A program made the position numbers and the translations under genes. Positions 3,480 through 64,000 of a stretch of 64,000 bases of DNA are shown one piece after another. The stretch is taken from assembly GCA_017617545.1 (NCBI GenBank), contig JAFZVZ010000026.1:1-64000 (forward strand), written 5' to 3'. This DNA is from Lachnospiraceae bacterium. Its GTDB lineage: Bacteria > Bacillota > Clostridia > Lachnospirales > Lachnospiraceae. The notes under the pieces are model-generated. The model was not told the DNA's origin. It was given only the letters and a program-made list of their open reading frames with translations, and ran no database searches. How positions within the stretch are numbered: the first letter of the stretch is position 1; every line of letters begins with the position of its first letter.

Positions 3480-3687
3480 GCAAACCTCCAAACCTTCTTC
3501 GTATTTAGTTACTGTCGCAGACTTCTTCCTGCGAAAAATACAATAAAACTAAATTCTATGCTATCAAAAAAAATAATAAAATACAAGAAAAAAGCGACAC
3601 GGTATCATGAATACAGCCGTGTCGCCGAGCATTTGATTCCATTTTCCGATAAAACATCTGTGGGAGGCGGCAACCCTGCCGTCCGTC
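3480..3687. promoter_or_regulatory. Intergenic region upstream of the BspA gene
   Basis: AT-rich spacer (more than 60 % A+T in an otherwise GC-rich window). It holds the BspA ribosome-binding site (GGAGG at 3485-3489), a small hairpin (TCGCAG at 3515-3520 pairing with CTGCGA at 3529-3534) in the probable 5' UTR, and the terminator of the upstream DUF308 gene. I see no convincing -35/-10 pair. Confidence 0.4.
3585..3626 (-). terminator. Rho-independent terminator after the DUF308 gene
   Basis: GCGACACGG (3594-3602) pairs perfectly with CCGTGTCGC (3617-3625). On the minus strand the stem is followed by a run of six T. It lies 60 bases past the stop of the DUF308 gene. Confidence 0.85.
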
Positions 3688-4320
3688 TCACTCCGCCGTC
3701 TCTTCCGTCGTCTCCTCCGGCTTCTTCTCTGCTTCTGCCGCTCTGTTGACTTCCTTCATGTCAACCGCCTCACGGCGCTTGTTGATCACTTTGCGGATGC
3801 GCGCGAGGACCAGTGCGGAGATCAGTCCGGTGAAACCGCTGTAGATGAGGCCGATGCCGATCCAGGTCCAGATGTTCGATTTGTCGATCAATCCCATCAT
3901 CAGGATGAAACCGTACACCATACCGAGAAGCGCAAGGATGGCGTGCAAACCCCATGTGCCGTGGTTCAGGCGCTTCATGTCAAAACTGTTCTGGAGTTTG
4001 ACGGCTCCGCTGAAGAAGATCAGGAACGACAGTGCCGCAGGCATATAGTCAACGACATCGTCGTGGCGGATGAACAGGACAACACCGATCATCAATGCCG
4101 TGACTGCGATGGCGAGCACATAGCGATGCTCATCCGCGAGAGCTTCCTTCTTGAACGCGTCGATCAGGAAGCAGATGCCGACGGCGATTGCCGCGCCGGC
4201 AAGAACATAGCAGATGATGTCGTCCGTGGTGTCCGGGTGCATCAGCATCAGGACGCCGAGCCCGATCAAAACAGCGGCGATCAGGATGATATCCAGTTTC
4301 ATTTTCTTGATAAAGCTCAT
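3688..4320 (-). CDS. DUF308 (HdeD-type) membrane protein
   Basis: A 210-residue protein with about six hydrophobic segments and little soluble sequence except a basic-then-acidic tail rich in Glu and Lys. The run DDIICYVLAGAAIAVGICF and the paired-helix layout match DUF308/HdeD membrane proteins, named after an Escherichia coli acid-stress protein; the biochemical role of the family is unclear. I prefer the ATG at 4320 (MSFIKKMK) because a GGGGTG stretch lies just upstream and it begins the first helix; an in-frame start at 4398 would add 26 polar residues. It ends with its own terminator and is probably transcribed alone or after the GGDEF gene. Confidence 0.75.
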   Translation of the reverse strand: MSFIKKMKLDIILIAAVLIGLGVLMLMHPDTTDDIICYVLAGAAIAVGICFLIDAFKKEALADEHRYVLAIAVTALMIGVVLFIRHDDVVDYMPAALSFLIFFSGAVKLQNSFDMKRLNHGTWGLHAILALLGMVYGFILMMGLIDKSNIWTWIGIGLIYSGFTGLISALVLARIRKVINKRREAVDMKEVNRAAEAEKKPEETTEETAE

Positions 4321-4414
4321 TTTTTTCACCCCGCAATCATCGGGGACCGTCCCTCGACGATCCCTCGGTTTTACCTTCTTTATTCCTGCATGCGGCATCG
4401 CCGCTCATGCACCG

Positions 4415-5494
4415 TCACCCGCTCACACACTGGTTCTTTCCGTTGTGCTTCGCGTTGTAGAGCATCTTGTCGGCAACCTTGAAGAACTCCTCCGCGGTCA
4501 TCGTGTACGAACTCATCTGGAAGATGCCGCAGCTGAAGGTGATGCGGCCGTCCAGCCACTCATACTCCGTCTCGCGGAACTCGCCGAGCGCGTTGTTCAT
4601 CATTGCCGCCGCGTCGCGCACCTTCACGTTGGGGAAGATCACGCTGAACTCCTCACCGCCGTACCGGCACACATAGTTGTCCTCGCCGCACCACTTCTGC
4701 AGCACGCGCGACAGATTGAGGATGACCTCGTCACCCATGTTGTGTCCGTAGGTGTCGTTGACCTTCTTGAAATCGTCGATATCGACGACGGCCAGCGTGA
4801 GCGGAGCCTCGCCGCGGTTGCGGACGAACGTGTCCAGATATTCGTAAAATGCGGTATGGTTGTAGAGCCCTGTCATGGGATCTCTCTGCAGTCTCATCTC
4901 AAGTCGCGTGTTATCGCTCACATGGCTTAGGATGACGCCGTTGTTGTCCATGACGTAAGCCATCAGGATCTCATTGCATATGATGCAGAGCATCAACAGA
5001 ACGAAGCCGAAGATGACGTCAACGATCGTGTTGTCTCCGCAGGTCGGCAACAGCTGCGCCGTTCCGATATACTGAACCACCGTCACAAGGCACAAGCCTT
5101 CCGTCGTGCGGCACATCCACCGTCTTCCGTATATCGACGAAAGCGAGATCGGCACCGCGAATGAACCGTACAGAACCGGCGATTCCGCGCCGACAAAGCA
5201 TCCGACCGTACACAGCACCCATACGAAGAGTATCGTCGCAAAATCCTTCCACTGGGACTGGATGTTCGGCGAATCGAGCATTTGCCACACCACGATGTAC
5301 GATGCCGTGAAGATGACACACGGAATGAGGACATACGTCTTCATATACTGTTCACGCGTGATGTCGGCGTACCTTGCGTCCACCTTGATCAGCATGTAAT
5401 ACTGCAACACGAGCAGCACCAGTATCATCACCGTGACGATCAGCATGATGATCAGAAAATGCTTATGCAATTTTTGGTATCTGCTGTCTTCCAC
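4415..5494 (-). CDS. Membrane-bound diguanylate cyclase (GGDEF)
   Basis: Makes cyclic di-GMP from two GTP at the inner face of the membrane. Residues 1-185 form about six transmembrane helices with no recognisable sensor fold. The C-terminal 170 residues are a GGDEF domain with DPMTGLYN, DIDDFKKVNDTYGH and the active-site loop RYGGEEF. The usual product-inhibition RxxD motif is missing: the aligned residues are GEDN. The GTG at 5494 is chosen because GGAAAGGA lies six bases upstream; a TTG at 5563 would extend the frame by 23 residues but has a poorer site. It lies between mgtE and the DUF308 gene on the same strand. Activity is predicted from intact catalytic residues. Confidence 0.85.
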   Translation of the reverse strand: MEDSRYQKLHKHFLIIMLIVTVMILVLLVLQYYMLIKVDARYADITREQYMKTYVLIPCVIFTASYIVVWQMLDSPNIQSQWKDFATILFVWVLCTVGCFVGAESPVLYGSFAVPISLSSIYGRRWMCRTTEGLCLVTVVQYIGTAQLLPTCGDNTIVDVIFGFVLLMLCIICNEILMAYVMDNNGVILSHVSDNTRLEMRLQRDPMTGLYNHTAFYEYLDTFVRNRGEAPLTLAVVDIDDFKKVNDTYGHNMGDEVILNLSRVLQKWCGEDNYVCRYGGEEFSVIFPNVKVRDAAAMMNNALGEFRETEYEWLDGRITFSCGIFQMSSYTMTAEEFFKVADKMLYNAKHNGKNQCVSG

Positions 5495-5593
5495 CGCCAA
5501 TCCTTTCCGGAGAGAGCGGCTCTCGCCGTTTCCCCCCAAGTTTTGCTTAAATACCTTCCCCAATAACGCCGCGATGCGGCAACGTTTTTTTTG

Positions 5594-7114
5594 TTACAAA
5601 TGCAGCAGCATTGTCGCGAGCGTAAAGAATACGAACAAGGAAACTGCATCCACGATCGTCGTGATGAACGGGCTCGCCATGACCGCCGGGTCAAAACCGA
5701 GCTTGCTCACGATGAGCGGCAGCGTACATCCGAGCATCTTTGCGCAAAATACGGTTGCCAGCAGGGTGAGGCATACCACGAGCGCCACCGGCACCGTGAT
5801 GTCCTGTCCCATGATCAGCTTGTCGACCAGGAAGATCTTCCCGAACGCGACTACCGCGAGGCTTCCGCCGCACAGGAGGGCAACCCGCATTTCTTTCCAT
5901 ATGATGCGCATGATATCCGTGAATTCCACTTCCCCAAGAGAAATCGCACGGATCACGGTAACGCTTGCCTGACTTCCGGAGTTACCTCCGGTATCCATCA
6001 GCATGGGGATGAACATCGCGAGCACCGTCGCCTTCAGCGCATCCTCATACGATGCTATGATCATTCCGGTAAATGTCGCCGAGATCATGAGCAAAAGCAG
6101 CCACACGATACGTGAGCGGTACAGCTCCCACGGACTTGTACGAAGATACGCCTTCTCCGTCGGCAACATAGCGTTCATCTTCGCGAAGTCCTCTTCCGCC
6201 TCGTCCTGCATGACGTCGATAGCGTCGTCGACGGTTACGATACCGACGAGACGGTTCTCCGCGTCCACAACGGGAAGCGCAAGCGCGTCGTACTTACTGA
6301 TCGTCGCCGCCACGTCCTCCTTGTCCTCGAGCGTGTTCACGCTGATGACATGGTCCTCCATGATATCCGCGATCTTCGCGTCATGGGCGGCGCACAAAAG
6401 ATCCTTGACCGTGACAACACCGATCAGGTGGCTGTCGCGATCCGTCACATAACAGGTGTAGATCGTCTCCTTGTCGATTGCGACCTTGCGGATCAGAGCG
6501 ATCGCGTCATCCACCGTCATGTCCTGCTTCAAACGCACGAACTCGGTGGTCATGATGCTTCCCGCGCTGTCCTCGGGGTACTTCAGCAATTCGTTGACGA
6601 TCTTGCGCGCCTCTGGCGTTACGTTCTGTAAAATACGCTTGACGACGTTGGCCGGCATCTCCTCAACGAGGTCGGCCGCGTCATCCATGTACAACTCATC
6701 CAGGACGTCCCGCAACTCGAGGTCACTGAATGATTCGATCAAAATCTGCTGCAGATCACTGTCGAGCTCGACGAACACCTCCGCCGCAAGCTCCTTCGGC
6801 AGGATACGGAACACAACCGCATACTGCTGCTTCGGCAGTTCGTAGAACAGCTCGGCGATATCCGCCGGCTCCGCGTCGCGGAGCATCTGACGAAGCGGCG
6901 CATACCGCTTCCCCTCGACAAGTTCGAGCGCTGCCTCAATGTCAAGTCCGCGCGCCTCCGCCGCTTCCTCCGCGGCCTCAGCGGCATCCACAGCCGCTTC
7001 GCGCGTGATCTCTTCGGAGGAAAGCTCCGTCTCCTCGCTCTCACTCCGATCCGCTTCGGGAAGAACCTTCTCCTCCGCGGTATCCTCTGTCAAAACTCTT
7101 TCCTTCGTTTCCAT
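5594..7114 (-). CDS. mgtE: Magnesium transporter MgtE
   Basis: Mg2+ channel/transporter of 506 residues with the standard MgtE architecture. An acidic N-terminal extension (about 50 residues) leads into the superhelical MgtE-N domain (RYAPLRQMLRDAEPADIAELF). Tandem CBS domains follow (MTTEFVRLKQDMTVDDAI and DHVISVNTLEDKEDVAATI), then five transmembrane helices with the conserved DTGGNSGSQAS loop of the pore. The ATG at 7114 has GGAGG six bases upstream, better than an in-frame ATG at 7132. The gene is preceded by about 430 bases of structured leader. In the family the cytoplasmic domains bind Mg2+ and close the pore; the CBS pair is intact here. Confidence 0.95.
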   Translation of the reverse strand: METKERVLTEDTAEEKVLPEADRSESEETELSSEEITREAAVDAAEAAEEAAEARGLDIEAALELVEGKRYAPLRQMLRDAEPADIAELFYELPKQQYAVVFRILPKELAAEVFVELDSDLQQILIESFSDLELRDVLDELYMDDAADLVEEMPANVVKRILQNVTPEARKIVNELLKYPEDSAGSIMTTEFVRLKQDMTVDDAIALIRKVAIDKETIYTCYVTDRDSHLIGVVTVKDLLCAAHDAKIADIMEDHVISVNTLEDKEDVAATISKYDALALPVVDAENRLVGIVTVDDAIDVMQDEAEEDFAKMNAMLPTEKAYLRTSPWELYRSRIVWLLLLMISATFTGMIIASYEDALKATVLAMFIPMLMDTGGNSGSQASVTVIRAISLGEVEFTDIMRIIWKEMRVALLCGGSLAVVAFGKIFLVDKLIMGQDITVPVALVVCLTLLATVFCAKMLGCTLPLIVSKLGFDPAVMASPFITTIVDAVSLFVFFTLATMLLHL

Positions 7115-7546
7115 CGAAAACCTCCGTTTCACACAGTATTCTCAGCATCCTTGGGATGCCGTTTGTGTAGAACACGGAGCCGATCAGGGTATCTCACTGT
7201 CGTTCGCTCTCCGGGATACGAAGTTATATCATCGCCGGACACCTTGCCGGCAGTAGCTATCGCTTCCCGTCTACCGCGAACCGTGTGCTGTTGTCAATAA
7301 GCGGCACGAGTGATACCCACTTGGGCTCGTGCTACTTCCACCGTCACCGTCCACAGTAAACCTCCTTTTTGGAATGATAATGAACAAAAAGGAGGTCGAT
7401 TGCGCGAGGATCACGCAGCGCAAGCGGGCACCTGCGAAAAACACGAAGTGATTTTCGCAGCATCTCCTTTCTGAAGATAATATTTATCCTGTCACCCGGA
7501 GCGCACTATCGTATAATCCGATATGTATGCACTTTACTACGTTAAT
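7115..7546 (-). promoter_or_regulatory. Long structured 5' leader of mgtE
   Basis: A TATAAT box at 7553-7558 (minus strand) puts the likely transcript start near 7546, leaving about 430 nt before the mgtE ATG. Three strong hairpins are visible. CTGCGAAAA pairs with TTTTCGCAG near 7432-7463. A perfect 12-bp stem (7360-7371 with 7385-7396) buries an AAAAAGGAGG ribosome-binding site. GCACGAG pairs with CTCGTGC near 7302-7332 and encloses CCCA/TGGG. I looked for M-box (ykoK) consensus elements and did not find them. A Mg2+- or translation-responsive leader is inferred from position and structure only. Confidence 0.5.
7271..7354 (-). CDS. Possible 27-residue leader peptide upstream of mgtE
   Basis: A GTG at 7354 follows AAAAAGGAGG with an ideal six-base gap and opens a 27-codon frame ending in TAG at 7271. 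The peptide is rich in Gly, Ser and Thr and resembles nothing I know. Its ribosome-binding site is one arm of a perfect 12-bp inverted repeat, as expected if translation is switched by RNA folding. It could be coincidental; there is no homology support. Confidence 0.3.
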   Translation of the reverse strand: MDGDGGSSTSPSGYHSCRLLTTAHGSR

Positions 7547-7621
7547 ACAGTAATTATATCACCGTCGTGAAGAAAAGTACACGCCACGGGTGCAGTAATC
7601 AAAGATTTTACAAATAGTTTT

Positions 7622-9325
7622 CTATTTCGTCAGGGTCAAGGCTAAAATGGTAAATTTTCTTGCATTTTCCCCTGATTTCAGCGAAATTTTTATAATATGC
7701 TCCCCGCTCTCCTCCTCATCGACGAGAAGATACGTGTTGCAGTGCGTCCATCCGATCGCCTTCGGGTCGATCTCCTTGAACGGCTTTCCGTCAACCTCCA
7801 CGACCGCGGTACCGAAATCCGGTTCTCCGGTATCCTTGTAGGTGAGGAAGAAGTTACGGCATGTTGTCTTGATGACAAACGGCTCATCGCCGGCCACATG
7901 CATCCAGTTGATCGGGAACTGCGGCGTTCCGAACGCGTCATAATCCATCTCCGCGTACTGGGTGACAGGGTCATTTTCCGTAAACGAACCTTCCTCCACC
8001 GTGATGCAGTCCGTGAAGGATGCAACCGTGTCGCGCGTCACCGTGAAACAGTTCTCGTACGGACGCCCGAGGTAGCTGTCCTTTGGCCACTTCGGCTCCA
8101 CCTCGACATGCGCGAGCGACTGCTCCAACAGATGGTTGATGCAGTCCGCCATCACGCGGTGGCCGTCGTTGGTCGGATGATAGCAGTCATAGAAATACTG
8201 GCGCTTGGAGATCACGTGGCCCTCGCCCTTCGCCCACTGCGGCGATACGGCGTCCTTCACGCTCACCATCGGGATCGCGTAGTGCAGACCGATCGGCGCC
8301 AGGCGGTCCTGCAGGTTCCAGTCGTTCATGAACACCGCGAACACCAGCAGCACGGCCGGCATCGCAGGCTGATTGTACGCCTTCGAAACAAGGCTCTCGA
8401 AGCACACGCCCTCGGTTTCGTCGCCCGCGTCATTGACGGAAAATTCAATGAACACGATGTCGGGCTGCACGGTACCGTTCTTCAGAACGTCGCGCTCGTA
8501 GCGCACCAGACCGAACTCGGACGGTGTTCCGCCGACGCCCGCCTTCACGAGGTGCACCTTCTCCGGATCCGTCGCGTACGTGTTCCGGAAATGATCGAAC
8601 ACACGGTAGCAGTAGCTCTCCGTCTCGATCGGCTTCGCTCCCGCTCCCTGCGTGATCGAACCGCCGATAAACGCAAGCGTCACATCCTCGCCGCGCTCCG
8701 CCTTCTCCATCGCCGCGCGCAGCCGGTGGGTGTTGCCCATCGACACAAGCGAGTGGCTGATCATCTCGCGGTACGCGTCGGACTCGTAATCGATCGGATC
8801 GTCCAGCTGCGGCTCCGGCACATCATAGCCGTCCTGCAGGTAGAAGATCACCGTCACCTTGACGCGAAGATCTTTCTTCTCCGAGAACAGGAAAAATGTT
8901 CCCAGTATGTCGTCATGCTCCCGGAAGTCAAACTCCGACAGCTCGAAAACTCGCTCAGCGCCGTCACAGCAGGTCTCCATGACCATGTGCGTGCCGTCGT
9001 TGTAGCGGTCCGTAGTTGCATAATGATGCAGTTCGCAGGTTACCTCCTGCTCCCTGTCCGCCTCATCCGTGCTGTCCACGATGATACCGATGCTGTGCAC
9101 CATCTCGCGGAAGCCCGCGCTCTTCTGCAGCTTCGCTCCCATCTCCTCCGGCAGCTCCGGGCAGATCAGTTGAAGGTTCTGCGCAACGCGGTTCTCCAGG
9201 AAGATCATCTCCGCGTACCGGTCGCCGCTCGGCGCCTTGTGGGAAGTGTACAGCAGATCCTCCAGCATCAGATAAATCTTGGCCCTTTGTCGGGTCGGGT
9301 CTTTGGGCGCAACAGGTCCTTTCAT
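7622..9325 (-). CDS. SGNH/GDSL hydrolase, probable carbohydrate esterase
   Basis: A 567-residue protein without a signal peptide. The first 215 residues are a mixed, probably beta-rich region that I do not recognise. The SGNH hydrolase domain begins at block I (AFIGGSITQGAGA, catalytic Ser). It carries the Gly block (KAGVGGTPSEFG), the Asn block (EFSVNDAG) and the Asp-His pair in YDCYHPTNDGH. A C-terminal region of about 100 residues looks like a beta-sandwich. It is a clear paralogue of the lipoprotein at 15726-17078 but with a longer N terminus and cytoplasmic prediction. ATG 9325 is used (AAGGAG 12 bases upstream); a GTG at 9382 is an alternative. It is divergent from the GH30 gene. Deacylation of plant polysaccharide fragments is inferred. 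Confidence 0.75.
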   Translation of the reverse strand: MKGPVAPKDPTRQRAKIYLMLEDLLYTSHKAPSGDRYAEMIFLENRVAQNLQLICPELPEEMGAKLQKSAGFREMVHSIGIIVDSTDEADREQEVTCELHHYATTDRYNDGTHMVMETCCDGAERVFELSEFDFREHDDILGTFFLFSEKKDLRVKVTVIFYLQDGYDVPEPQLDDPIDYESDAYREMISHSLVSMGNTHRLRAAMEKAERGEDVTLAFIGGSITQGAGAKPIETESYCYRVFDHFRNTYATDPEKVHLVKAGVGGTPSEFGLVRYERDVLKNGTVQPDIVFIEFSVNDAGDETEGVCFESLVSKAYNQPAMPAVLLVFAVFMNDWNLQDRLAPIGLHYAIPMVSVKDAVSPQWAKGEGHVISKRQYFYDCYHPTNDGHRVMADCINHLLEQSLAHVEVEPKWPKDSYLGRPYENCFTVTRDTVASFTDCITVEEGSFTENDPVTQYAEMDYDAFGTPQFPINWMHVAGDEPFVIKTTCRNFFLTYKDTGEPDFGTAVVEVDGKPFKEIDPKAIGWTHCNTYLLVDEEESGEHIIKISLKSGENARKFTILALTLTK

Positions 9326-9457
9326 GCGTCTATCAGTCTCCTTTTTCTCTATATCACCGCGCCCTTCCGGCGCGATGAGCACATTTTTCCACTATCTTGC
9401 ATATTATATCATAGTTTGTCAACAAAAGTAAAAGGTTTCTTTCGGAAAATAAGACGG

Positions 9458-9486
9458 TTGCCGAAACCGGGGTTATTTGCTATACT
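9458..9486 (+). promoter_or_regulatory. Sigma-A type promoter of the GH30 gene
   Basis: TTGCCG (9458-9463), a 17-base spacer and TATACT (9481-9486) fit a housekeeping promoter. The predicted start near 9492 gives a 95-nt 5' UTR for the GH30 lipoprotein gene. Confidence 0.6.
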
Positions 9487-9502
9487 GCATGTGATCAAAA
9501 AA

Positions 9503-9564
9503 CGCACCGCCGATCGCCCATTGATCGGCGTAGGAAATCCGGTCCTTACCGGAAACGCGGTGCG
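9503..9564 (+). ncRNA. Predicted three-way-junction RNA in the GH30 5' UTR
   Basis: Three perfect stems nest in 62 nt. CGCACCGC (9503-9510) pairs with GCGGTGCG (9557-9564). Inside it are CGATC/GATCG (9511-9515 with 9523-9527) and TCCGGT/ACCGGA (9538-9543 with 9548-9553). The joining strands are purine-rich (GCGTAGGAAA and AAC). The element starts about 10 nt after the predicted transcript start and ends 22 nt before the GH30 ATG, where a riboswitch-like regulator would sit. It matches no class I know. Confidence 0.4.
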
Positions 9565-9586
9565 ATATGCGCGAAAGGAACATCCT

Positions 9587-11134
9587 ATGAATTCATCTCT
9601 CACGAAACACTGCCCGTCGCGGATCACCCCCGGCAGATACCTTGCGGTTCTCTGCCTCGCGATCCTTGCCGTAATTATTCTCACGGCTTGCAACGGAAAT
9701 AATACCACTCCCGCGGAGCCGACCGTGACTCCCACGGAAACCCCGTCGCCCACGCCCGCCGGCCCGGTGATCGACCCCGACGCCCGCCAGCTGAGCCTGG
9801 ACCTTGACGGCACGCACCAGACGATCGACGGCTTCGGCGCAGGCTTCACGTGGTACGCCGACATGATCTTCCAGAGACAGCATTATGAAGAGATCTTCGA
9901 CCTCCTCTTCAAGGATGCCGGATTCACGATCCTCCGCTTCAAAAACGAGTACGGCTACAGCACATTTAACGCTTCCGCTCTCACGAACAAGCGCTACTAC
10001 GACGCAGCGAAGAAACGCGCTGCCGAGCGCGGCGAGGACGTCACCGTTTTGTATTCCAGCTGGTCGCCCACGGCCGATCTGAAGAGCAACAACTCGATCA
10101 ACGGCTACGGAACCTTGAAGAAGGACGAGAACGGCCAGTACTGCTACGACGAGTTCGCTGCCTGGTGGAAGGAAGCCGTCGATGCTTATCGCAACGCAGG
10201 CATCGCCGTGGATTACGTGAGTATTCAAAACGAGTGCGATTTCCAGGCAAGCTATGACGGCTGCGAGTTCGCTCCCGAGGAAAATGACAACCTCGCTTCG
10301 TACGCGAAGGCGTTCCTCGCGACCTACCGTCTCTTCCGCGACTCCTACGGCGAGGATACGCCTCAGATGGTCGCTCCCGAGACGATGACCGTAGCTCCGA
10401 CCGATCTGCGCGCCTACCTGCGCAACATCATCGCGGAGGAGCCGGACAGCGTCAGCGTCATCGGTCACCACCTCTACTTAGGCGGCGAATCCTCCGATGA
10501 CCCGAACTCCTGCAACTACGATTCGTTCCTCATGAACTTCCGCGGTGTCACCTCCCTCGCGAAGGATTACGGTGCCCGCAAATGGCAGACCGAGTTCTAC
10601 CGCGGCACCGCCCTCGAGACGGCCAACGTCATCAACAACTCGCTGATCCACGAAAACCTCAACGCCTACATCTTCTGGGGCGGCGTATGGACCGGCAGCG
10701 CGCTGGACGGCATCGACTGCGGCAGCCTGATCATCTGCGGCACGCGGTTCAAGGACGGCGCTTCCGAGAAGGGCTACATGGTGACCGGCGACTACTACGC
10801 GATGCGCCATTTTTCGGAGTTCATCCGCCCCGGTTACATCCGCATCGACGCCAACCTCACTCCCGCCGCGGGCGTTCGCCTGAGCGGCTACAAGAGCCCC
10901 GACGGCTCGAAGGTTGTCCTCGTTCTTCTCAACAACAACGCGGAGGCAGCAAAGGTACAGCTCCCGCTCGACAACTATGAGATCACGGGCTCGAAGTGCT
11001 TCCAGTCCGTATTTACCGAAGGCTACACCGCCGATATGCTCTACCGCGACCTCGGCGCCCTCAATAACGACCGCCTGCTCGAGCTGCCCGGCGAGAGCGT
11101 GACGACGATCGTTCTCGAAGGGAAAACAAAGTAA
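9587..11134 (+). CDS. GH30 glycoside hydrolase lipoprotein (xylanase/glucosidase type)
   Basis: A 515-residue exported enzyme. A lipoprotein signal (lipobox LTAC, Cys near residue 34) is followed by a Thr/Pro linker, then a (beta/alpha)8 catalytic domain beginning QTIDGFGAGFTWY. The likely acid/base is Glu in VSIQNECD and the nucleophile Glu in KWQTEFYRG, the usual GH30/clan A positions. The C terminus is the family's beta side-domain (GVRLSGYKSPDGSKVVLVLLNNN). Family members cleave glucuronoxylan, other xylans or beta-glucosides; the exact substrate is not readable here. Start ATG 9587 has AAAGGA eight bases upstream. It is one of few plus-strand genes, has its own promoter and terminator, and is flanked by SGNH esterases, which suggests hemicellulose use. 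Confidence 0.85.
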   Translation: MNSSLTKHCPSRITPGRYLAVLCLAILAVIILTACNGNNTTPAEPTVTPTETPSPTPAGPVIDPDARQLSLDLDGTHQTIDGFGAGFTWYADMIFQRQHYEEIFDLLFKDAGFTILRFKNEYGYSTFNASALTNKRYYDAAKKRAAERGEDVTVLYSSWSPTADLKSNNSINGYGTLKKDENGQYCYDEFAAWWKEAVDAYRNAGIAVDYVSIQNECDFQASYDGCEFAPEENDNLASYAKAFLATYRLFRDSYGEDTPQMVAPETMTVAPTDLRAYLRNIIAEEPDSVSVIGHHLYLGGESSDDPNSCNYDSFLMNFRGVTSLAKDYGARKWQTEFYRGTALETANVINNSLIHENLNAYIFWGGVWTGSALDGIDCGSLIICGTRFKDGASEKGYMVTGDYYAMRHFSEFIRPGYIRIDANLTPAAGVRLSGYKSPDGSKVVLVLLNNNAEAAKVQLPLDNYEITGSKCFQSVFTEGYTADMLYRDLGALNNDRLLELPGESVTTIVLEGKTK

Positions 11135-11169
11135 GAAACCAAGCAAAAGTAATCAGTCCCCACGGACAT

Positions 11170-11203
11170 AAAAAAGCCGCTGCAGTTGTTGCAGCGGCTT
11201 TTT
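11170..11203. terminator. Bidirectional terminator between GH30 and the AAA+ gene
   Basis: GCCGCTGCA (11176-11184) pairs with TGCAGCGGC (11190-11198). It has A-run on the left and T-run on the right, so it can end both the plus-strand GH30 transcript and the converging minus-strand AAA+ transcript. Confidence 0.9.
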
Positions 11204-11213
11204 CTTAACGGGT

Positions 11214-32388: not shown

Positions 32389-32389
32389 G

Positions 32390-55076: not shown

Positions 55077-55077
55077 T

Positions 55078-55692: not shown

Positions 55693-55719
55693 AAAAAAGG
55701 CGGCCTTCTTCAGGCCGCC
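55693..55719 (-). terminator. Intrinsic terminator between antitoxin repeats and toxin
   Basis: GGCGGCC (55699-55705) pairs with GGCCGCC (55713-55719) and is followed on the minus strand by six T. In type III systems this terminator sets the antitoxin-to-toxin ratio. Confidence 0.9.
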
Positions 55720-55720
55720 C

Positions 55721-55798: not shown

Positions 55799-55810
55799 TT
55801 TTACTCCCCT

Positions 55811-55839
55811 ATTTTATTCTATTGTTTTGAACATGTCAA
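55811..55839 (-). promoter_or_regulatory. Promoter of the type III toxin-antitoxin operon
   Basis: TTGACA (plus positions 55834-55839), a 17-base spacer and TAAAAT (55811-55816), read on the minus strand. The predicted start is just before antitoxin unit 1. The box lies 36 bases from the stop of the DUF5688 gene. Confidence 0.8.
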
Positions 55840-55874
55840 CCAATTCCTTCCTCTATCGGAGGGACATAACCGAA

Positions 55875-56831: not shown

Positions 56832-57287
56832 ACACCCGGCTCCCTGCCGGGTCCTTTCGTATAGTTAGTTTTCGTATGTACACGCGCGTGGAGATCATCG
56901 GGGCGATCGCCCCTAAACCGATCCGCGATGCACGGTTGCCCATGCACGGCAGCATCGGAGAACGTGCCGCTTCCATCCCGGCGGCACTGCAGAAACCTGC
57001 ATCAAGAAAAAAAGAGTTGCCGGTATTCCGGCAACTCCGATTGTATCATATGTTGAAGCGGGTACGCAACTCTTTCAGGGCTTCTCCGCCTTAGAAGATC
57101 AGCGCCTGTTTTTGTGCGTTTTTCCCTGTGCTTTTGCGCCCTAATGACTCCTCCATGAGGAACCTCCGGACCTCCGTATCCGCCTTCGTACAACTCGCAC
57201 GAAAACGTCTTCGGAAAATGTACACATCCCACAAATTCCGGCCCTTCACACTCTCCGCTCGAGTTTGCTTCGACCGAACCCGCAGGA
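56832..57287 (-). other. 455-base gap between DUF5688 and the GGDEF-EAL gene
   Basis: I see no convincing gene. It contains a terminator (57007-57037), a minus-strand promoter-like pair TTGCGT / TACAAT (18-base spacer) just before that hairpin, a 14-bp palindrome GGGGCGATCGCCCC (56900-56913), and short inverted repeats around GTGCATG. The segment 57100-57280 has several short frames but no coding signature. Confidence 0.4.
57007..57037 (-). terminator. Intrinsic terminator
   Basis: GAGTTGCCGG (57014-57023) pairs with CCGGCAACTC (57028-57037) with a four-base loop, followed on the minus strand by seven T. Likely ends the GGDEF-EAL transcript, or acts as an attenuator for DUF5688. Confidence 0.85.
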
Positions 57288-58829
57288 TCAGCTCTCGCTC
57301 CGCATCGCCGAGATCATGTGACCGATCAGCTCCGCTCCCATCGCCTCGCCGTACAGGGTTCCCTGCGCGATATCCAGGCCGCATTCCTTCGCAATGCTCT
57401 CCTGCTCACTGCTGTTCACGCCGGTGCCGATCAGTTTCACACCGAAGAGGTGTGCCACCTGCGCCACGATCGTGAGCGCCTGCTCTGCCGCCTCGTTACC
57501 GGGCTCCGGCACATCACTGTTCTTCGGCTTCCAGTACGACACGGGAAGCTCCTGCAGCTCCTTCACGGGAATGGCGGGAATTCCGTCCGCCTCAAGCGCA
57601 AAATGGATCCCGAACGCCGTGAGCTTCTGCATTTTCCCCTTCGCCTTCCCGAGGTTACGGATTATCGCCTGCTCCGGAAGCTCGAACGTGACACGGCGCA
57701 GATCCGCGTCGAGGTTCTGAAGCGTATCATATGTTGTCTTGATGAACTCACGGTTGCAGAAGACGCGCTCCGAAACCGGGATCGCAATACTCACATCATT
57801 GGTGCCCATCTCGGAGAAGCGCTTCAGGCATTCGCCGGCGCGCTGCAGCATCGCCTCGTACACCACCATCGTCAGTCCGCTGTTGTCGAGGCAGCTGAAG
57901 AGCTGCTCGCCGCCCACGACGCCGACTGCCGTCTTCAGCATCGGGGATACCGCCAGCTGTTCGATTCCCTTGCCTCTCAGGCGCTTGCGGGGAATAAACG
58001 GGTACTCCACCGCGCCGCCGCGAACCGCTTCCGTCACAGCCGCCTGGAAACTCATCTTGTCGATGGATTCCTGCGCCATCTCCTTGGTATAAAAGCTGTA
58101 CCAGCTCTCTCCGTGCTCAGCCGCCTGCTTCACTGCCTCGGTCATCGCGAGCCCGAGGTTCATATCGAGAAGCTGCATCGTGTCACCGTCCTCCGGCGCG
58201 ACCGTCACCGCGCCGTACACGACCGGCTCAACCTCCACGCCGTTGCTCATCATCGGAAGAGCCAGCAGCTTGAACAGCTTGTCAATCTTGCTCTCATAGT
58301 CCGTGCGGTGCTGGATCCTGCGCGTGAGCACGGCAAATGCATCGTCGCTCAGCACGGCGATCTCATCGTCATCCTCGCTGAGCGCGCCGTGAAGTCTCTG
58401 CAGGATCTCCTGCTTCATCTCGGCGTTGTTGCGGCCCAAAAGGCTCGGGCCGGCATCCTTATCTCCGCGGAAGGCAAACATCGCAAGACCGATCTCCTCG
58501 CCCTCCGGACATTTCTTCTTCGCCGTCTCAAACGACTCGGCAAGCTTCTGCCGGTTCGGAAGATCCGTTCCCGCATCCGTGTACGCCATCCGCTTCACGC
58601 GCTCGTATTTCTTCTTCAGGGAATCGTAGCTGTCCGTGAGCGAGGTCTTGGCCTGCTCATTTTCCGCGCCGAACGCCTCCGCCTTGGAAAGACGCGATTT
58701 GGCATCGTTCAGCTGGCGTTCCAGCGACTTCAGGCGTCGCTGCGCCACATTGAGACGCATCACATACACAAACGTGACGATCAGCGCCGCAATGGCTACG
58801 ATCGTCATAATGATCAACGGGATTTTCAC
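57288..58829 (-). CDS. Degenerate GGDEF-EAL membrane protein
   Basis: A 513-residue protein: one N-terminal TM helix (IPLIIMTIVAIAALIVTFVYVM), a coiled coil (about 30-80), a GGDEF-like domain (TDAGTDLPNRQKLAESFE) whose signature reads LSDDAF, and an EAL-like domain that begins AVEYPFIPRKRLRGKGIEQL without any EAL triad. Both catalytic sites are lost, so it should neither make nor break cyclic di-GMP. Such proteins serve as receptors or scaffolds. GTG 58829 has GGAGG eight bases upstream; the frame extends to 58847. Confidence 0.75.
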   Translation of the reverse strand: MKIPLIIMTIVAIAALIVTFVYVMRLNVAQRRLKSLERQLNDAKSRLSKAEAFGAENEQAKTSLTDSYDSLKKKYERVKRMAYTDAGTDLPNRQKLAESFETAKKKCPEGEEIGLAMFAFRGDKDAGPSLLGRNNAEMKQEILQRLHGALSEDDDEIAVLSDDAFAVLTRRIQHRTDYESKIDKLFKLLALPMMSNGVEVEPVVYGAVTVAPEDGDTMQLLDMNLGLAMTEAVKQAAEHGESWYSFYTKEMAQESIDKMSFQAAVTEAVRGGAVEYPFIPRKRLRGKGIEQLAVSPMLKTAVGVVGGEQLFSCLDNSGLTMVVYEAMLQRAGECLKRFSEMGTNDVSIAIPVSERVFCNREFIKTTYDTLQNLDADLRRVTFELPEQAIIRNLGKAKGKMQKLTAFGIHFALEADGIPAIPVKELQELPVSYWKPKNSDVPEPGNEAAEQALTIVAQVAHLFGVKLIGTGVNSSEQESIAKECGLDIAQGTLYGEAMGAELIGHMISAMRSES

Positions 58830-58861
58830 GACGGCTACCTCCAGCAACTGTTCTCTAATGA

Positions 58862-58897
58862 CAAAAATACCCTACCTCCGGATGGAGATAGGGTAAA
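58862..58897 (-). terminator. Terminator after the tRNA cluster
   Basis: ACCCTATCTCC pairs with GGAGGTAGGGT (one mismatch) and is followed by five T on the minus strand, directly after the last tRNA. Confidence 0.85.
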
Positions 58898-58900
58898 ATA

Positions 58901-58974
58901 TCGAGGCGACGTGACTTGAACACGCGACCCCCGCGTCCCTAACACGGTGCTCTACCAAACTGAGCCACGCCTCG
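58901..58974 (-). tRNA. tRNA-Pro(AGG)
   Basis: A 74-nt cloverleaf with acceptor CGAGGCG/CGCCTCG (C1-G72 as in bacterial tRNA-Pro), anticodon stem CCGTG/CGCGG, loop TTAGGGA (anticodon AGG), T loop TTCAAGT, discriminator A. It shares acceptor and D arm exactly with the CGG isoacceptor 215 bases upstream. A34 is unusual for bacterial tRNA-Pro and would need deamination to inosine, or direct reading of CCU. Confidence 0.88.
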
Positions 58975-59028
58975 AACTGGCGTCTTGCTTCTCCGAGCGC
59001 GCATTCCGTCCGAAGTACAAAACGAAAC

Positions 59029-59101
59029 AGCTGGAAATCAGATTCGAACTGACGACCCCTTCATTACGAGTGAAGTGCTCTACCGGCTGAGCTATTCCAG
59101 C
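59029..59101 (-). tRNA. tRNA-Thr(CGT)
   Basis: A 73-nt cloverleaf: acceptor GCTGGAA/TTCCAGC, D arm GCTC...GAGC, anticodon stem CTTCA/TGAAG with loop CTCGTAA (anticodon CGT), T loop TTCGAAT, discriminator T. Middle gene of the tRNA cluster. Confidence 0.92.
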
Positions 59102-59189
59102 ATGCACGACAGTGCTTCTTCCCGCAGAACCAACGGTTTTGCAGGCTCTCCCGTGAAGTCTCCGGAAACCGGCATCCTTCCCGGGATAA

Positions 59190-59263
59190 TCGAGGCGACG
59201 GGATTCGAACCCACGACCTCTGCGTCCCGAACGCAGCGCTCTACCAAACTGAGCCACGCCTCG
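59190..59263 (-). tRNA. tRNA-Pro(CGG)
   Basis: A 74-nt cloverleaf with acceptor CGAGGCG/CGCCTCG, anticodon stem CTGCG/CGCAG, loop TTCGGGA (anticodon CGG), T arm GTGGG/CCCGT with loop TTCGAAT, discriminator A. First gene of the cluster. Confidence 0.93.
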
Positions 59264-59387
59264 ATTTTTTCGCGTGCTTTGACATTATGCAACAAAAACC
59301 CCGGATTGTCAACCCTAAAAACAAAGAAAACAAAAAAACAGAGAATACACGGACCGGCGAAGAAAACTGTCGCCGGTCCGCGCTGCC

Positions 59388-60749
59388 TTACTCCTCGTAA
59401 TTGCCCCAATCCCAGTAGACGGAGAGCTCGTCCTCAACGCCCTCGGGCACAAGGTACACGGTGATCTCAAGCGGCATCAGCCACACGGACTTCGACGTGA
59501 GCGTCCGGTCGCCGAACCGCTCCTTCAGCTTCGCGTCCAGCACCGGGATCTTGCTGACATCATACTTCGAGCCCTCGCCGTAGAAGGTCGCCCACGCGCT
59601 CTGCGAGGTCTTGAGCTCCTCTCTCACCGCTGCGGCAACCTCAGGATCCTTGCCGAATTCGACGTACGCGTCCAGAAGTTCATTCAGCATCTGCTCATCC
59701 TGCGTGATCCTGCCTTCGATCGCATCCAGCTGGAACTGCGTCATGTATTTGACTCTCCAGGTGGACTCAACGCCCAGGCTGTTCGTTGTCTTCATGGACT
59801 CGAACTTCTCCTGCGCGGCCGAAGGAACCGAGATCTCTGTCGATCCGATCTCGGAAAATGTGATCGTCCAGTCGGCAGTTTTTCCCGCCACCGCAAAATG
59901 GAACTCGATCTTGTCAAGCATGGCGCCGTTGTAGGAAACCCTGAGCTGCGGTTCCCCGATCATCGTAAGCATATCCAGCGACTGATCCCCGATGTACCAA
60001 CGGAAGCTCGGGAAGTCACTGTCCACGTAATTTACGAATTTCTCGAGCATCTCGTGCCGGATGACAAACAGATCCGCGCCGTCGTCCGCCTTATGATATC
60101 CGAAATTCGCCTCCAGGTACTCGTCGCTGCTGAAAGCCGCCAGAAGCGTGAGCAGCGAAGAATTTTCCGGAATGACCTTCGACGGCCAATCCGGGAAGAT
60201 GTGCGCCAGAACTTTTACGAAGCTTTGGAACCACGCGTCCCCGGGCTCACCGAGATTGCGGATGATCGGATACATGTACCCCGCATCCTCCTCGCTGACA
60301 GCCATGTAGTCGTAGTTCATCTTGCTGTTGCCCCACCAGGTCGCCATATCGACGCCGCCGTGCTCCTGCAGAAAGATATAATCGTTCTGCTTGGAGCCGT
60401 CCTCCCAGGTGTCTGCAACGAACATCAGCACGCCGTCATCGCCGATGATAAACCGGACCTGCTTGGTCCTCGTTTCCTCTTCATCGCCGTTCATGCCCTT
60501 CATCTCGGACGTTACGGTCACGCTGCCCTCTCCGAACGAGTTGTGCAGCGCAGTCAGAAATCTCTCGATCGCCGTGCCCTCCAGCCGCTCGGGTTCGTCC
60601 GTCGGCTTCGGCGTCGGCGTTCCGTCCGTTGCCGTCGTCGGAGTCGGTGCCTCCGTAGGCGTCGGATCATTGTCCGTCGTGTTTTTGCCGCAGCCGATCG
60701 GTAGCGCGATCAAGAATACAGCCAATACAACCAAAATAATATGTTTCAT
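59388..60749 (-). CDS. Lipoprotein of unknown function
   Basis: A 453-residue exported protein. Lipobox LPIGCGK, a Pro/Thr-rich linker (about 22-55), then a large mixed domain I do not recognise. It is rich in aromatic residues (DMATWWGNSKMNYDYM, WYIGDQSLDMLTMIGEPQLRVSYNG, FHFAVAGKTADWTITFSE) and ends with a helical segment and a LPLEITVYLVPEG strand. The central beta-rich part resembles the general layout of LolA/DUF-type lipid- or metabolite-binding lipoproteins, but without a motif to confirm it. GGGGG precedes the ATG at 60749. Single gene between the tRNA cluster and htpG. Confidence 0.7.
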   Translation of the reverse strand: MKHIILVVLAVFLIALPIGCGKNTTDNDPTPTEAPTPTTATDGTPTPKPTDEPERLEGTAIERFLTALHNSFGEGSVTVTSEMKGMNGDEEETRTKQVRFIIGDDGVLMFVADTWEDGSKQNDYIFLQEHGGVDMATWWGNSKMNYDYMAVSEEDAGYMYPIIRNLGEPGDAWFQSFVKVLAHIFPDWPSKVIPENSSLLTLLAAFSSDEYLEANFGYHKADDGADLFVIRHEMLEKFVNYVDSDFPSFRWYIGDQSLDMLTMIGEPQLRVSYNGAMLDKIEFHFAVAGKTADWTITFSEIGSTEISVPSAAQEKFESMKTTNSLGVESTWRVKYMTQFQLDAIEGRITQDEQMLNELLDAYVEFGKDPEVAAAVREELKTSQSAWATFYGEGSKYDVSKIPVLDAKLKERFGDRTLTSKSVWLMPLEITVYLVPEGVEDELSVYWDWGNYEE

Positions 60750-60931
60750 GATACACCCCCAAAAATACATTACACCAAGAAACCGCTGATCTGATCAGCA
60801 TTTTTCTAAGTATAACACTTGTATTTACCTCGGTCAACTGTATTTACTAATTTTTTATAAACTTTTTCTGTCACGGTATCATGCGCGGTATCATGCGAGG
60901 CAACCGTTGTCAACCTTTTTGACGATCGCAC

Positions 60932-60960
60932 GAAAAAACGAGGCATCACCCGGATGCCCC
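60932..60960 (-). terminator. Terminator after htpG
   Basis: GAGGCATC pairs with GATGCCCC (one G-T wobble) over a five-base loop, followed by six T on the minus strand, 40 bases past the htpG stop. Confidence 0.8.
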
Positions 60961-60998
60961 GTTTAAAGTTCATGATTCTTCGGAAAATACTTTCCGCG

Positions 60999-63080
60999 TT
61001 ACTCGTCCTTAAGTCCCGCAAACAGCCCCATCAGCTTCGTGCTGCGCTCCATGAACGCCGTCATGTCGGCAGGCTCCAGCGGCCGCTGCGCAAGTCTCGC
61101 GAGGTCGTAGATCTGCGCGCACAGAAGCTTGCTGTTCTCGGTCTCCGCATTCTCGCTGATGTACTTCACAAGCTTGTTGCCCGCGTTCAGCACGAGCGTC
61201 GAATCATCCGGCATTCCGGCCTGCGCCATGCCGTACATCGCCATCATATCCTGCATCCGTCGGCTCTCCTCCGACAGCGTGATCATCGCCGGGATCGCGG
61301 CGTTCTTAAGCTTCTCCACCTTGACGTCGAGCTCGCTGTTGTCAAGCGCCTTTCGGAAAATGGTAGTGAGCGATTCGGTCAGCGTCTTCAGCTCCTCCGC
61401 GTCCGCCTCGTCCTTGAGGGTGTCCGTCACGTCCGCGTCGATGCGGCGGAACGTCACGGTATCATTGTCCTGCTCCATCTGCTGGATGAACGGCTGGTCG
61501 ATGCGGTGCGTCATGATCAGCGCGTCCACACCGTTCTCGCGGAACATGTTGATGTACTGGCTCTGCTGCTTCTCATCGGTCACGTAGTACACAACCGTCT
61601 TCTCGGGCTCCTTGTCCGCGTCGTCCTTCTCGCTTGCGGCATCTGCGGCAGCCTCGCTCTCCGCGGTCTCCGCATTTTCCGAAGCCTCGCTCTTCGCGTC
61701 CTCTGCCTCGTCCTTCGGGCCTTCCTTCGCAGCCTTCGCCGCCTCAACATACTCCGGCAGCGTGATGTATTTGCCCTCGATGTCCTTGTAGATGAGGAAA
61801 TCCTTCATCTTCTCGCGGAACTTCGCGTCCTTCAGGCAGCCGTACTTGATGAACGGGCAGATGTCGTCCCAGCATTTTTCGTAATTCTCGCGGTCGGTCT
61901 TGTACATGCCCGAAAGCTTGTCCGCGACCTTCTTTGCGATGTAATCGCTGATCTTCTTCACAAAACCGTCGTTCTGCAGCGCGCTTCGCGATACATTCAA
62001 CGGGATGTCCGGGCAGTCGATGACGCCCTTGAGAAGCATCAGGAACTCCGGGATGACCTCCTTGATGTTGTCCGCGATAAAAACCTGATTGTTGTAAAGT
62101 TTGATCGTGCCGTCGAGGCTGTCGTACTCCGTGTTGATCTTCGGAAAATAAAGGATGCCCTTTAAGTTGAACGGATAGTCCATGTTCAGGTGAATCCAGA
62201 ACAGCGGCTCCTTGTAATCGTGGAACGTCGTACGGTAGAACTCCTTGTACTCCTCTTCCTTGCACTCGGAAGGCGTGTGCAAAAACAGCGGGAACGTGTC
62301 GTTGATCGGCTTCGGTCCCTTCTTCTCCTTCTTGGGTTCTGCCTCGGTTTTCTCACCGTCAGCAGCCTCGCCGTCAACCTCCTTCGCCTTGCCGTCCTCG
62401 TCGACCTCGGCGTCGATCACCTCAGGCTCCTCCACGGGAGCGGGCTTCGTCGCGTCCTCGAAGAAGATCGGAACCGGCATGAACGAGCAGTACTTGCCGA
62501 GAACTTCCTTCACGCGGTACTCGTTCGAGAACTCGTAGCTGTCCTCGTTGAGGTAAAGCGTGATCTCCGTGCCGCGCTCGGTGCGGTCGGAATCGCTCAT
62601 CTCATAGTCGATGCCCTCCTCGGACTCCCAGCGCACGGCCTGCGCGCCGTCCTTGTAGGAGAGCGTGTCGATCGTCACCTTGTGCGCAACCATGAACGCG
62701 CTGTAGAAACCGAGACCGAAGTGGCCGATGATCTGGTCCTCGCTCGCCTTGTCCTTGTATTTCGCAAGGAAGTCGGTCGCGCCGGAAAATGCGATCTGGT
62801 TAATGTACTCCTTCACCTCATCCGCGGTCATACCGATACCGTTGTCGATGATGGTGAGCGTCTTCTCCTCGGGGTTGCTGCGCACGATGATCTTCCACTC
62901 GTTGTCATCCGCGATCTCCGCCTCGCCGATCAGCGCAAGCTTCTTCAGCTTCGTGATGGCGTCGCAGCCGTTCGATACAAGCTCTCTTAAGAAAATGTCG
63001 TGATCCGAGTAGAGCCACTTCTTGATGATGGGAAATATATTTTCCGAATTGATGGACAGATTGCCCTGTTCTTTAGCCAT
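60999..63080 (-). CDS. htpG: Molecular chaperone HtpG (Hsp90)
   Basis: ATP-dependent chaperone of 693 residues. The N-terminal GHKL ATPase domain has LRELVSNGCDAITKLKKLA, IIDNGIGMTADEV and GHFGLGFYSAFMV. The middle domain has PLFWIHLNMDYPFNLKGILYFPK and SRSALQNDGFVKKI. Insertions rich in Glu, Lys and Ala (about residues 225-260 and 485-530) are larger than in Escherichia coli HtpG, giving a long charged linker like that of eukaryotic Hsp90. ATG 63080 with GGAGG six bases upstream is chosen over 63146. Controlled by a CIRCE element. Confidence 0.96.
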   Translation of the reverse strand: MAKEQGNLSINSENIFPIIKKWLYSDHDIFLRELVSNGCDAITKLKKLALIGEAEIADDNEWKIIVRSNPEEKTLTIIDNGIGMTADEVKEYINQIAFSGATDFLAKYKDKASEDQIIGHFGLGFYSAFMVAHKVTIDTLSYKDGAQAVRWESEEGIDYEMSDSDRTERGTEITLYLNEDSYEFSNEYRVKEVLGKYCSFMPVPIFFEDATKPAPVEEPEVIDAEVDEDGKAKEVDGEAADGEKTEAEPKKEKKGPKPINDTFPLFLHTPSECKEEEYKEFYRTTFHDYKEPLFWIHLNMDYPFNLKGILYFPKINTEYDSLDGTIKLYNNQVFIADNIKEVIPEFLMLLKGVIDCPDIPLNVSRSALQNDGFVKKISDYIAKKVADKLSGMYKTDRENYEKCWDDICPFIKYGCLKDAKFREKMKDFLIYKDIEGKYITLPEYVEAAKAAKEGPKDEAEDAKSEASENAETAESEAAADAASEKDDADKEPEKTVVYYVTDEKQQSQYINMFRENGVDALIMTHRIDQPFIQQMEQDNDTVTFRRIDADVTDTLKDEADAEELKTLTESLTTIFRKALDNSELDVKVEKLKNAAIPAMITLSEESRRMQDMMAMYGMAQAGMPDDSTLVLNAGNKLVKYISENAETENSKLLCAQIYDLARLAQRPLEPADMTAFMERSTKLMGLFAGLKDE

Positions 63081-63179
63081 GATATGCCTCCGTTCCGTCC
63101 GCCTGCGCGGACCGGTTTTTCGTATGTCAGATCGTCGGTTTTTCACCCTGTCAGACGGTGTATTTTCCGACCTTTCACA

Positions 63180-63208
63180 AGTATACTCCCGCCCGGTATG
63201 TTTGTCAA
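63180..63208 (-). promoter_or_regulatory. htpG promoter
   Basis: On the minus strand TTGACA (63203-63208), 17-base spacer, TATACT (63180-63185). The predicted start is about 100 bases before the htpG ATG. Confidence 0.85.
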
Positions 63209-63215
63209 CGAAAAA

Positions 63216-63242
63216 TTAGCACTCATTTTGTCTGAGTGCTAA
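63216..63242. promoter_or_regulatory. CIRCE operator (HrcA site)
   Basis: TTAGCACTC (63216-63224) and GAGTGCTAA (63234-63242), separated by nine bases, are the exact CIRCE consensus bound by the heat-shock repressor HrcA. It lies eight bases upstream of the htpG -35 box. Confidence 0.95.
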
Positions 63243-63284
63243 CAAGTGTTTTTTGATATGTTGAAAATGCTCCGCAACCGCTCG

Positions 63285-64000
63285 TTATCCGAGCAGCTCC
63301 GCTGCCGCAGCGAGGTACTCCGCCTCCGTCCTGCACTTGTGGATATGCTTCTTCGCGCGCTCCGCGTCGGGAAAACGGTCCCCGAGATAGCCCCAGACTT
63401 CCTTCATCTTGAACAGCGTGTCCTTCACGCCCCACAGATTCACATAGGCGCGGTACAGATCATCGTGGAAGTCCCGCAGCTCCGCAGGCGTCATCTCTCT
63501 GCCCTCGCGGATCTCACGGAAAATGCCCGGGTTCGTGACGGCGCCCCGCCCGATCATGACGGCATTCAAATTCGGAAATCTCCCGATCAGCGCCTCATAG
63601 TCCGCGACGCTTGTGATGTCCCCGTTGAAGCAAAGCGGTGCCTTGCAATGATCATACGCGTAGGCAAACGCGTCCATGTCCGGCGTGCCGCCGTACCAGT
63701 CCTCGCGCACGCGCGCATGCACGATCAATTCGGAAATCGGATGGCGGTTGTAAATGTCAAGAATGCGCGGCCACTCCGCCTGAGCGTCTGCGTACCCGAG
63801 CCTTGTCTTCACCGAGACGGGAACCGGCAGCTCCTGTGCAAACAGCTTCCCAAAGAACTCCTCCATCCCCTCGGGGTCGCGCAGAAAACCGCTGCCGCGG
63901 CGCTTCTTCACGACAGTCCCCGACGGACAGCCGAAGTTTAAGTTGACCTCTGTATAACCAAGATCCGCAAGCAGACGGATCATGTCCGCCGCGCCGTCGG
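63285..64000 (-). CDS. dus: tRNA-dihydrouridine synthase, 5' part beyond right edge
   Basis: FMN-dependent reductase of uridines in tRNA. The visible 238 codons hold the TIM-barrel Dus signature VNLNFGCPSGTVVKKRRGSGFLRD, then VSVKTRLGY, LIVHARVREDWYGG, CFNGDITSVADYEAL and MIGRGAVTNPGIFREI. The frame stays open past the ATG at 63983 to the edge, so the true start is outside. Its stop is about 45 bases from the CIRCE element of htpG. Confidence 0.93.
   Translation of the reverse strand, partial: DGAADMIRLLADLGYTEVNLNFGCPSGTVVKKRRGSGFLRDPEGMEEFFGKLFAQELPVPVSVKTRLGYADAQAEWPRILDIYNRHPISELIVHARVREDWYGGTPDMDAFAYAYDHCKAPLCFNGDITSVADYEALIGRFPNLNAVMIGRGAVTNPGIFREIREGREMTPAELRDFHDDLYRAYVNLWGVKDTLFKMKEVWGYLGDRFPDAERAKKHIHKCRTEAEYLAAAAELLG

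Follow-up and report, generated by a model that had tools for sequence, protein, structure and literature searches.

The present work concerns a 64,000-nucleotide stretch of a Lachnospiraceae genome (assembly GCA_017617545.1, contig JAFZVZ010000026.1, positions 1 to 64,000), hereafter the window, and a short word, GGAAAAT, that recurs all along it. This word marks one Lachnospiraceae genus, with spellings that differ among species. In the genome of the window it occurs far in excess of composition and codon use and equally on both strands, and in six species it is depleted from the type IV pilus operon. We propose, with a probability of roughly 0.6, that GGAAAAT forms the core of a DNA uptake sequence: a tag by which the species group would recognize its own free DNA in natural transformation.

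Exact matching yielded 73 copies of GGAAAAT in the window, 35 on the forward and 38 on the reverse strand (Table 1). This is the total given by the original prediction, which also placed 70 of the 73 starts exactly; the copies that start at 21169, 26503 and 50788 had been listed 10, 10 and 1 bases away. The expected numbers are 4.7 copies from base composition, 6.9 from a first-order and 7.5 from a second-order background, corresponding to excesses of 15.5-, 10.6- and 9.7-fold, in agreement with the roughly fifteen-fold enrichment first claimed, and GGAAAAT is the top 7-mer of the window by z-score at background orders 0 to 3. The word is preceded by C in 44 copies and followed by G in 42, and both neighbors are present in 24, so that CGGAAAATG stands as its commonest full form. 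Thirty copies lie in the sense and 28 in the antisense orientation of genes (58 in total), with 15 intergenic or at gene edges; the genes of the window are nearly all on one strand, yet the word is divided almost evenly between strands. In 500 synonymous-codon shuffles of the window genes only 2.9 sense (maximum 10) and 2.6 antisense copies (maximum 8) appeared.

The genome comprises 2,732,263 bases in 45 contigs, of which the window is contig 44, positions 1-64000. The genome-wide count, which the original prediction had proposed as its own test, lies far above that of a control word: CGGAAAATG occurs 492 times forward and 513 times in reverse (1005 in total), bearing out the equal use of both strands, compared with 5 and 2 occurrences (7 in total) for the same letters in reverse order, a comparison without matching for codon use. 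Layout and codon use were assessed in a sample of 433,710 bases, consisting of 20 stretches plus the window, which holds 469 copies or 1.08 per kb. Within predicted genes there are 194 sense and 149 antisense copies (343 altogether), and 126 lie between genes or at gene edges, an approximate share because genes were called with a simple script of our own and not with a standard gene finder. Sixty synonymous-codon shuffles of the sample gave 22.7 sense and 14.3 antisense copies, that is, an 8.6- and a 10.4-fold excess. The assertion that codon use does not explain the word thus holds for both orientations, in the window and in the sample, and the claim that it occurs in any reading frame was nearly right, with five of the six frame and orientation classes used in the window and all six in the 434-kb sample.

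Changing CGGAAAATG base by base against the codon null revealed which positions are constrained. Position 2 (G) and positions 5-8 (AAAT) allow no substitution without a drop of the word to 0-3.5 times expectation, compared with 19.9 for CGGAAAATG itself, and are thus strict. Position 3 tolerates any base (best G, A, T), A is preferred to C and C to T at position 4, and positions 1 and 9 show preferences only. The true unit is therefore degenerate and can be written (c)G-N-[A>C>T]-A-A-A-T-(g). Intergenic copies have a T-rich 5' flank that reads roughly TTNTTCGGAAAATGC; apart from this side the site flanks are near background, and a mobile repeat was rejected on these grounds.

The nearest named relatives of the window are Lachnospiraceae, in agreement with its earlier placement in Clostridia. 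In a uvrC survey of 80 Lachnospiraceae loci, four from the closest relatives and 76 serving as background, GGAAAAT exceeded its second-order expectation 4- to 14-fold in the window and these four relatives (UvrC identity 77-93%) and in no other locus. An artefact of codon, amino-acid or composition bias, with a probability that we take to be practically nil, would have to account both for the 8.6- and 10.4-fold excess left by codon-preserving shuffles, which led us to reject codon use and composition as the cause, and for the 0- to 2.0-fold values of the 76 other loci, 69 of which gave no such top word in a pooled codon scan. Among 299 genomes of the family (referred to by G numbers, and loci by L numbers), CGGAAAATG was found 1005 times in the own genome, 763 times in G189 of the same genus, and never more than 401 times in any other.

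Over 22 genomes of the genus, CGGAAAATG ranges from 63 to 1060 copies with a forward/reverse ratio of 0.87 to 1.16, and a second spelling, CGGCAAATG, which several species mix in, ranges from 41 to 445 (Table 1). The phylogeny was drawn from ComEC only, for 18 of these species and with a midpoint root; a PilB tree was discarded, its longest frames having unequal non-homologous ends that produced long false branches. In the ComEC tree the ten species with at least 453 copies of CGGAAAATG form one clade (support 100/100), five species of mixed spelling form another, and G311, G316 and G301 stand apart. Within these 18 species, dialects follow phylogeny around a shared strict core, a trait of the DNA uptake sequences (DUS) and uptake signal sequences (USS) of other bacteria.

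Of the comE/pil competence genes that the original prediction suggested looking for, the own genome has ComEC, ComEA and those of a type IV pilus, and it also has DprA. ComEA and ComEC are close neighbors on contig 31 (within about 4 kb), DprA is on contig 28, and contig 7 harbors a type IV pilus operon with pilB, pilT, pilC, pilins, a prepilin peptidase, pilM and several minor pilins. Across the genus ComEA was found in 22 of 22 genomes (21 over the curated cut-off), ComEC in 20 and DprA in 20, the DprA match being absent from G302 and G309. A PilB-grade ATPase is whole in 17 of the 22 and split in G312, and all 13 good-quality genomes have it; none was found in G299, G307, G314 and G315, which are 79-85% complete.

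The longest copy-free gap of the own sample, 12,964 bases, lies over this pilus operon, the next longest being 4,795 bases. The operon holds one copy in 14.4 kb, equal to the second-order chance expectation (1.03); elsewhere in the sample the poorest 14-kb block holds 10 copies, and the median of all 93 overlapping blocks is 16. Because the desert was first noticed in the own genome as its longest gap, this genome is no independent test of it. In five further species the pilus operon holds 1, 4, 3, 2 and 0 copies against 6.0, 14.9, 16.8, 15.2 and 10.0 expected, where the operon of G189 is covered in part and the expectations for G304 and G318 are estimates obtained by scaling 9-mer counts rather than measured values. 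Altogether this amounts to 10 copies against 62.9 expected without the own genome, and 11 against 78.5 over the six species (Poisson 1.6e-21). Low GC was ruled out as the reason: eight 2-kb operon blocks hold 2 copies, whereas eight blocks drawn from 26 other low-GC blocks average 12.9 and never held fewer than 3 in 20,000 draws. The desert may be due to diversification, to selection, or to one ancient acquisition of the operon from a donor without the tag.

With strands assigned by GC skew, the leading strand carries 260 copies of the sample and the lagging strand 209, and 86% of genes are co-oriented. The slight leading excess matches the direction expected, since the codon null itself gives more sense than antisense copies. 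A polar site of the Chi or FtsK-orienting kind, recognized by AddAB/RecBCD or by a translocase, would likewise be a short, abundant, clade-specific word spread over the genome, and a leading-strand excess is in its favor; nevertheless, we find it hardly credible, because the excess is small for genes so strongly co-oriented and the window, with its genes nearly all on one strand, is split 35/38. The marked orientation bias along the replichore that characterizes Chi was not observed, the polarity being too weak for Chi- or FtsK-type sites, as the original argument against Chi had it, and unlike Chi the spelling varies among species of one genus.

Copies are densest in divergent gaps (3.52 per kb), followed by convergent (2.91) and tandem gaps (2.47), and sparsest in genes (0.91), gaps over 800 bp being excluded. 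Of the 77 copies in tandem gaps, 52 are closer to the end of the upstream gene. Neighboring pairs no more than 60 bp apart number 39 against 28 expected, and 29 of them are inverted (p 0.003). This non-coding preference with some close inverted pairs is again a trait of DUS and USS. Terminator function as the main cause was rejected, given that 343 of 469 copies are in genes and just 39 pairs lie within 60 bp; a terminator role is also not general, because divergent gaps are the densest although they contain no gene 3' ends.

In the closest relative, L001, whose aligned DNA is 89% identical, 22 of 25 sites are intact, compared with 93 of 159 permuted words (p 0.003), these controls having the same bases but not being matched for codon position. 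Conservation of this kind would also suit a chromosome-organisation or nucleoid site, where a protein inside the cell would bind the word, roughly once per kb, and so fold or protect the chromosome, as would the genome-wide spread with little polarity and the intergenic preference. Such a site is unlikely, however, for it predicts neither the change of dialect within the genus, nor the near-absence of the word from G311 and G316, nor the operon desert of six species. Quite unlikely, too, is a recombination-linked drive without uptake specificity, in which the word is favored in gene conversion or repair and builds up by biased conversion: it would yield the build-up in both orientations, the conservation in the closest relative and the strict core, but gives no reason for an exempt pilus operon or for a change of spelling within the genus. 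Among the three options first put forward (an uptake signal, a chromosome-organisation site and a spreading motif under selection), we therefore favor the uptake signal on account of the dialects, the strict core, the competence genes, the site conservation, the inverted pairs and the operon desert, a chromosome-organisation site being simply less likely.

From the computed excess, strand symmetry, strict core with tolerant flank, dialects, machinery, conservation in L001 and operon depletion, we infer recognition, uptake, drive and the identity of the reading protein. A receptor on the cell surface, most probably one of the minor type IV pilins, would bind (c)GN[A/C]AAAT(g) on extracellular DNA; the pilus would then retract (PilB/PilT) and pass the DNA to ComEA and ComEC, which would import one strand for recombination by DprA and RecA. 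Since tagged fragments would be taken up more often, alleles bearing the tag would spread by recombination and the word would accumulate to about one per kb in both orientations, and a drift in receptor specificity would carry the spelling with it and give rise to dialects. A candidate for reading the word, by analogy, is a GspH-type minor pilin of the pilus operon (Table 1). The best NCBIfam match of its counterpart in G300 is type II GspH (E 2.8e-7, residues 5-59), covering the N-terminal part only and falling under the model's cut-off. FimT, itself a minor pilin, is of the GspH type. The minor pilin is a fair candidate because FimT is reported to serve DNA uptake in Legionella (PMC12616744; here and below, published work is cited from passages of the papers). 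Alternatively, the word could be a DNA-modification mark, a methylation site by which methylated self-DNA is taken up. Non-palindromic degenerate words do suit some methyltransferases, but methylation by itself gives no reason to expect an excess of sites, and we hold this to be very unlikely. Recognition of methylated DNA has been reported for uptake in Campylobacter (PMC8468864).

Look-alike words appeared in three distant genera in a codon-controlled scan of genera sampled for high CGGAAAATG counts. G073 has GGN[C>A]AATG, with GGTCAATG found 35 times against about 3 expected; G209 has GAAAATGA 40 times against 4.6; and G089 has GGAAAATG 30 times against 5.3 and GGGAAATG 16 times against 2.4. 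In the same scan G293 was weak, and nothing convincing was found in G220, G188 and G178. The pooled codon scan, covering 69 of the 76 non-genus loci (seven were too short), showed no GGAAAAT-like word among its top words. In these 69 loci, from among L005-L080, words with CCGG and AAGCTT are about 2-fold up in both gene orientations beyond codon use, which sets the background level for judging weak cases. Weak 'AAAGC' dialects first read into G188, G310 and G311 were dropped, such words being about 2-fold up anyway in the pooled loci.

Several observations weigh against the word being an uptake sequence. G311 and G316 carry PilB, PilT, ComEC, ComEA and DprA, yet neither spelling exceeds the usual family level there, which may reflect loss of the word or an unread dialect. 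G309, the genome richest in copies, is without a DprA match, and the word-rich G307 and G314 are without a PilB-grade match, though only 85% and 82% complete. G209 combines a strong look-alike word and ComEC with the absence of a PilB-grade ATPase, its only good ATPase being of CpaF (Tad) size, and shows no credible PilM; PilM was also missed in G089, a genome with PilB. For other bacteria, a role of Tad-type pili in DNA uptake has been reported (PMC6370729, PMC8513845). Site conservation, borne out in L001, shows no significant excess in three other relatives (p 0.09, 0.12 and 0.39), with sites kept against permuted words kept at 8/13 against 29/78 in L003, 8/24 against 39/192 in L004 and 8/29 against 47/200 in L002. 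Spacing is no more regular than random (CV 0.96; 24% of 2000 random sets are as regular), where DUS are described as spaced 'somewhat more regularly', a soft trait (PMC1626085). Nor was there a significant bias toward gene ends or along genes, unlike the gene-end bias reported inside genes for Pasteurellaceae USS, which was not seen in Neisseria (PMC2346458). Finally, ComEC regions are only mildly poor in copies, with 16 against 35.1 over nine species, all nine expectations being scaled from 9-mer counts; three species have zero copies and the own genome 3 against 4.1. Because of G209, G309 and G311/G316, and because the link between word and uptake is a prediction, we claim only that the word may work like a DUS or USS and do not assign it to that class.

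The own genome shares with DUS and USS an excess beyond composition and codons, a density near one per kb without orientation bias, and competence machinery. The DUS of Neisseriaceae (GCCGTCTGAA and its dialects, with ComP as receptor) resemble the present word further in occurring partly as inverted pairs, in their non-coding preference, in a strict core with dialects and in the presence of a type IV pilus and ComEC (PMC1626085, PMC3630211, PMC12616744). They differ in that the present word is unrelated, belongs to an unrelated phylum (Bacillota), has a shorter and more degenerate core and plays only a predicted part in uptake, and no ComP was identified here; its absence from the pilus operon is a point on which the DUS passages cited say nothing. 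Similarly, the USS of Pasteurellaceae (AAGTGCGGT and ACAAGCGGT) are alike in density, symmetry, two spellings by subclade and an AT-rich flank; the word itself is unrelated, and its T-rich flank is on the 5' side, unlike the USS AT tracts downstream of the core (PMC12616744).

According to a paper of 2025, two Gram-negative families, Neisseriaceae and Pasteurellaceae, are the only ones known to take up DNA by sequence (PMC12616744), which agrees with the original remark that uptake sequences are not known from Clostridia, and the matches listed from the open-access literature (subscription papers and preprints being outside this scope) describe such a word, in the passages given, neither for Clostridia nor for Lachnospiraceae. 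For two Veillonella strains, also Bacillota, the passage of PMC5397411 reports no word of at least 10 bp at 100 copies and leaves 9-mers open. The chances are about even that Bacillota have here their first uptake-sequence system, the third to have evolved independently overall, with dialects in one genus, parallel spellings in other Lachnospiraceae genera and a pilus operon kept free of tags, perhaps since a defective uptake machine can be spread by transformation but not mended by it. If so, sequence-specific uptake would have evolved at least three times and members of a major gut family would practise biased transformation. The word would then predict which DNA such anaerobes accept and could be added to constructs meant for them, and within-genus dialect pairs would be useful for finding the receptor. 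The operon desert bears on why uptake genes persist though transformation itself should spread their loss.

Table 1. Positions of the word and of associated features (window positions unless a genome, contig or locus is named), and counts of the two spellings over the genus.
Feature	Location	Strand	Remarks
GGAAAAT (ATTTTCC on +), 38 copies within 3641..63168	3641, 7664, 7973, 11346, 12492, 13602, 14622, 14679, 21169, 23785, 23932, 26503, 28378, 29581, 30454, 32215, 32420, 34302, 34939, 35139, 35797, 37722, 38089, 40215, 43062, 45846, 46501, 49777, 50627, 51172, 53542, 53841, 57631, 58659, 60162, 61674, 63039, 63162	-	Starts; exact match
GGAAAAT, 35 copies within 8438..63524	8438, 9444, 10279, 11888, 15213, 15291, 16521, 17147, 17570, 22381, 25160, 26344, 27902, 29153, 31367, 33894, 35492, 36448, 38824, 40136, 42102, 45520, 50038, 50788, 51538, 51691, 51754, 54164, 57213, 59853, 60982, 61355, 62143, 62784, 63518	+	Starts; exact match
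Pilus-operon desert	G000:C7:46657-59621 (L090:6657-19621)		Also L124, L291-L294 in other species
Candidate reader, minor pilin in pilus operon	C7:55911-56420 = L090:15911-16420		169 residues; GspH-type
CGGAAAATG/CGGCAAATG counts			G309 1060/122, G304 1042/155, G318 1019/179, own 1005/129, G306 808/116, G307 797/300
CGGAAAATG/CGGCAAATG counts			G300 763/123, G189 763/165, G312 744/202, G314 728/94, G313 453/431, G308 435/354
CGGAAAATG/CGGCAAATG counts			G303 421/287, G317 389/284, G299 324/445, G305 272/155, G301 253/166
CGGAAAATG/CGGCAAATG counts			G315 224/124, G310 212/221, G302 96/143, G311 73/41, G316 63/41
AAA ATPase-like predicted protein	11214-13259	-	
Lipoprotein-like genes	49276-53414	-	Three adjacent genes
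tRNA-Pro	58900-58975	-	Anticodon AGG

Three other features of the window deserve mention. The predicted ATPase-like protein combines a region resembling the C-terminal domain of RNA polymerase alpha with a SpoVK/CbbX-like AAA ATPase, all matches being under the model cut-offs. The third of the lipoprotein-like genes appears serpin-like by eye. The tRNA-Pro was called by ARAGORN and, unlike the other three tRNAs, falls under the Rfam threshold.

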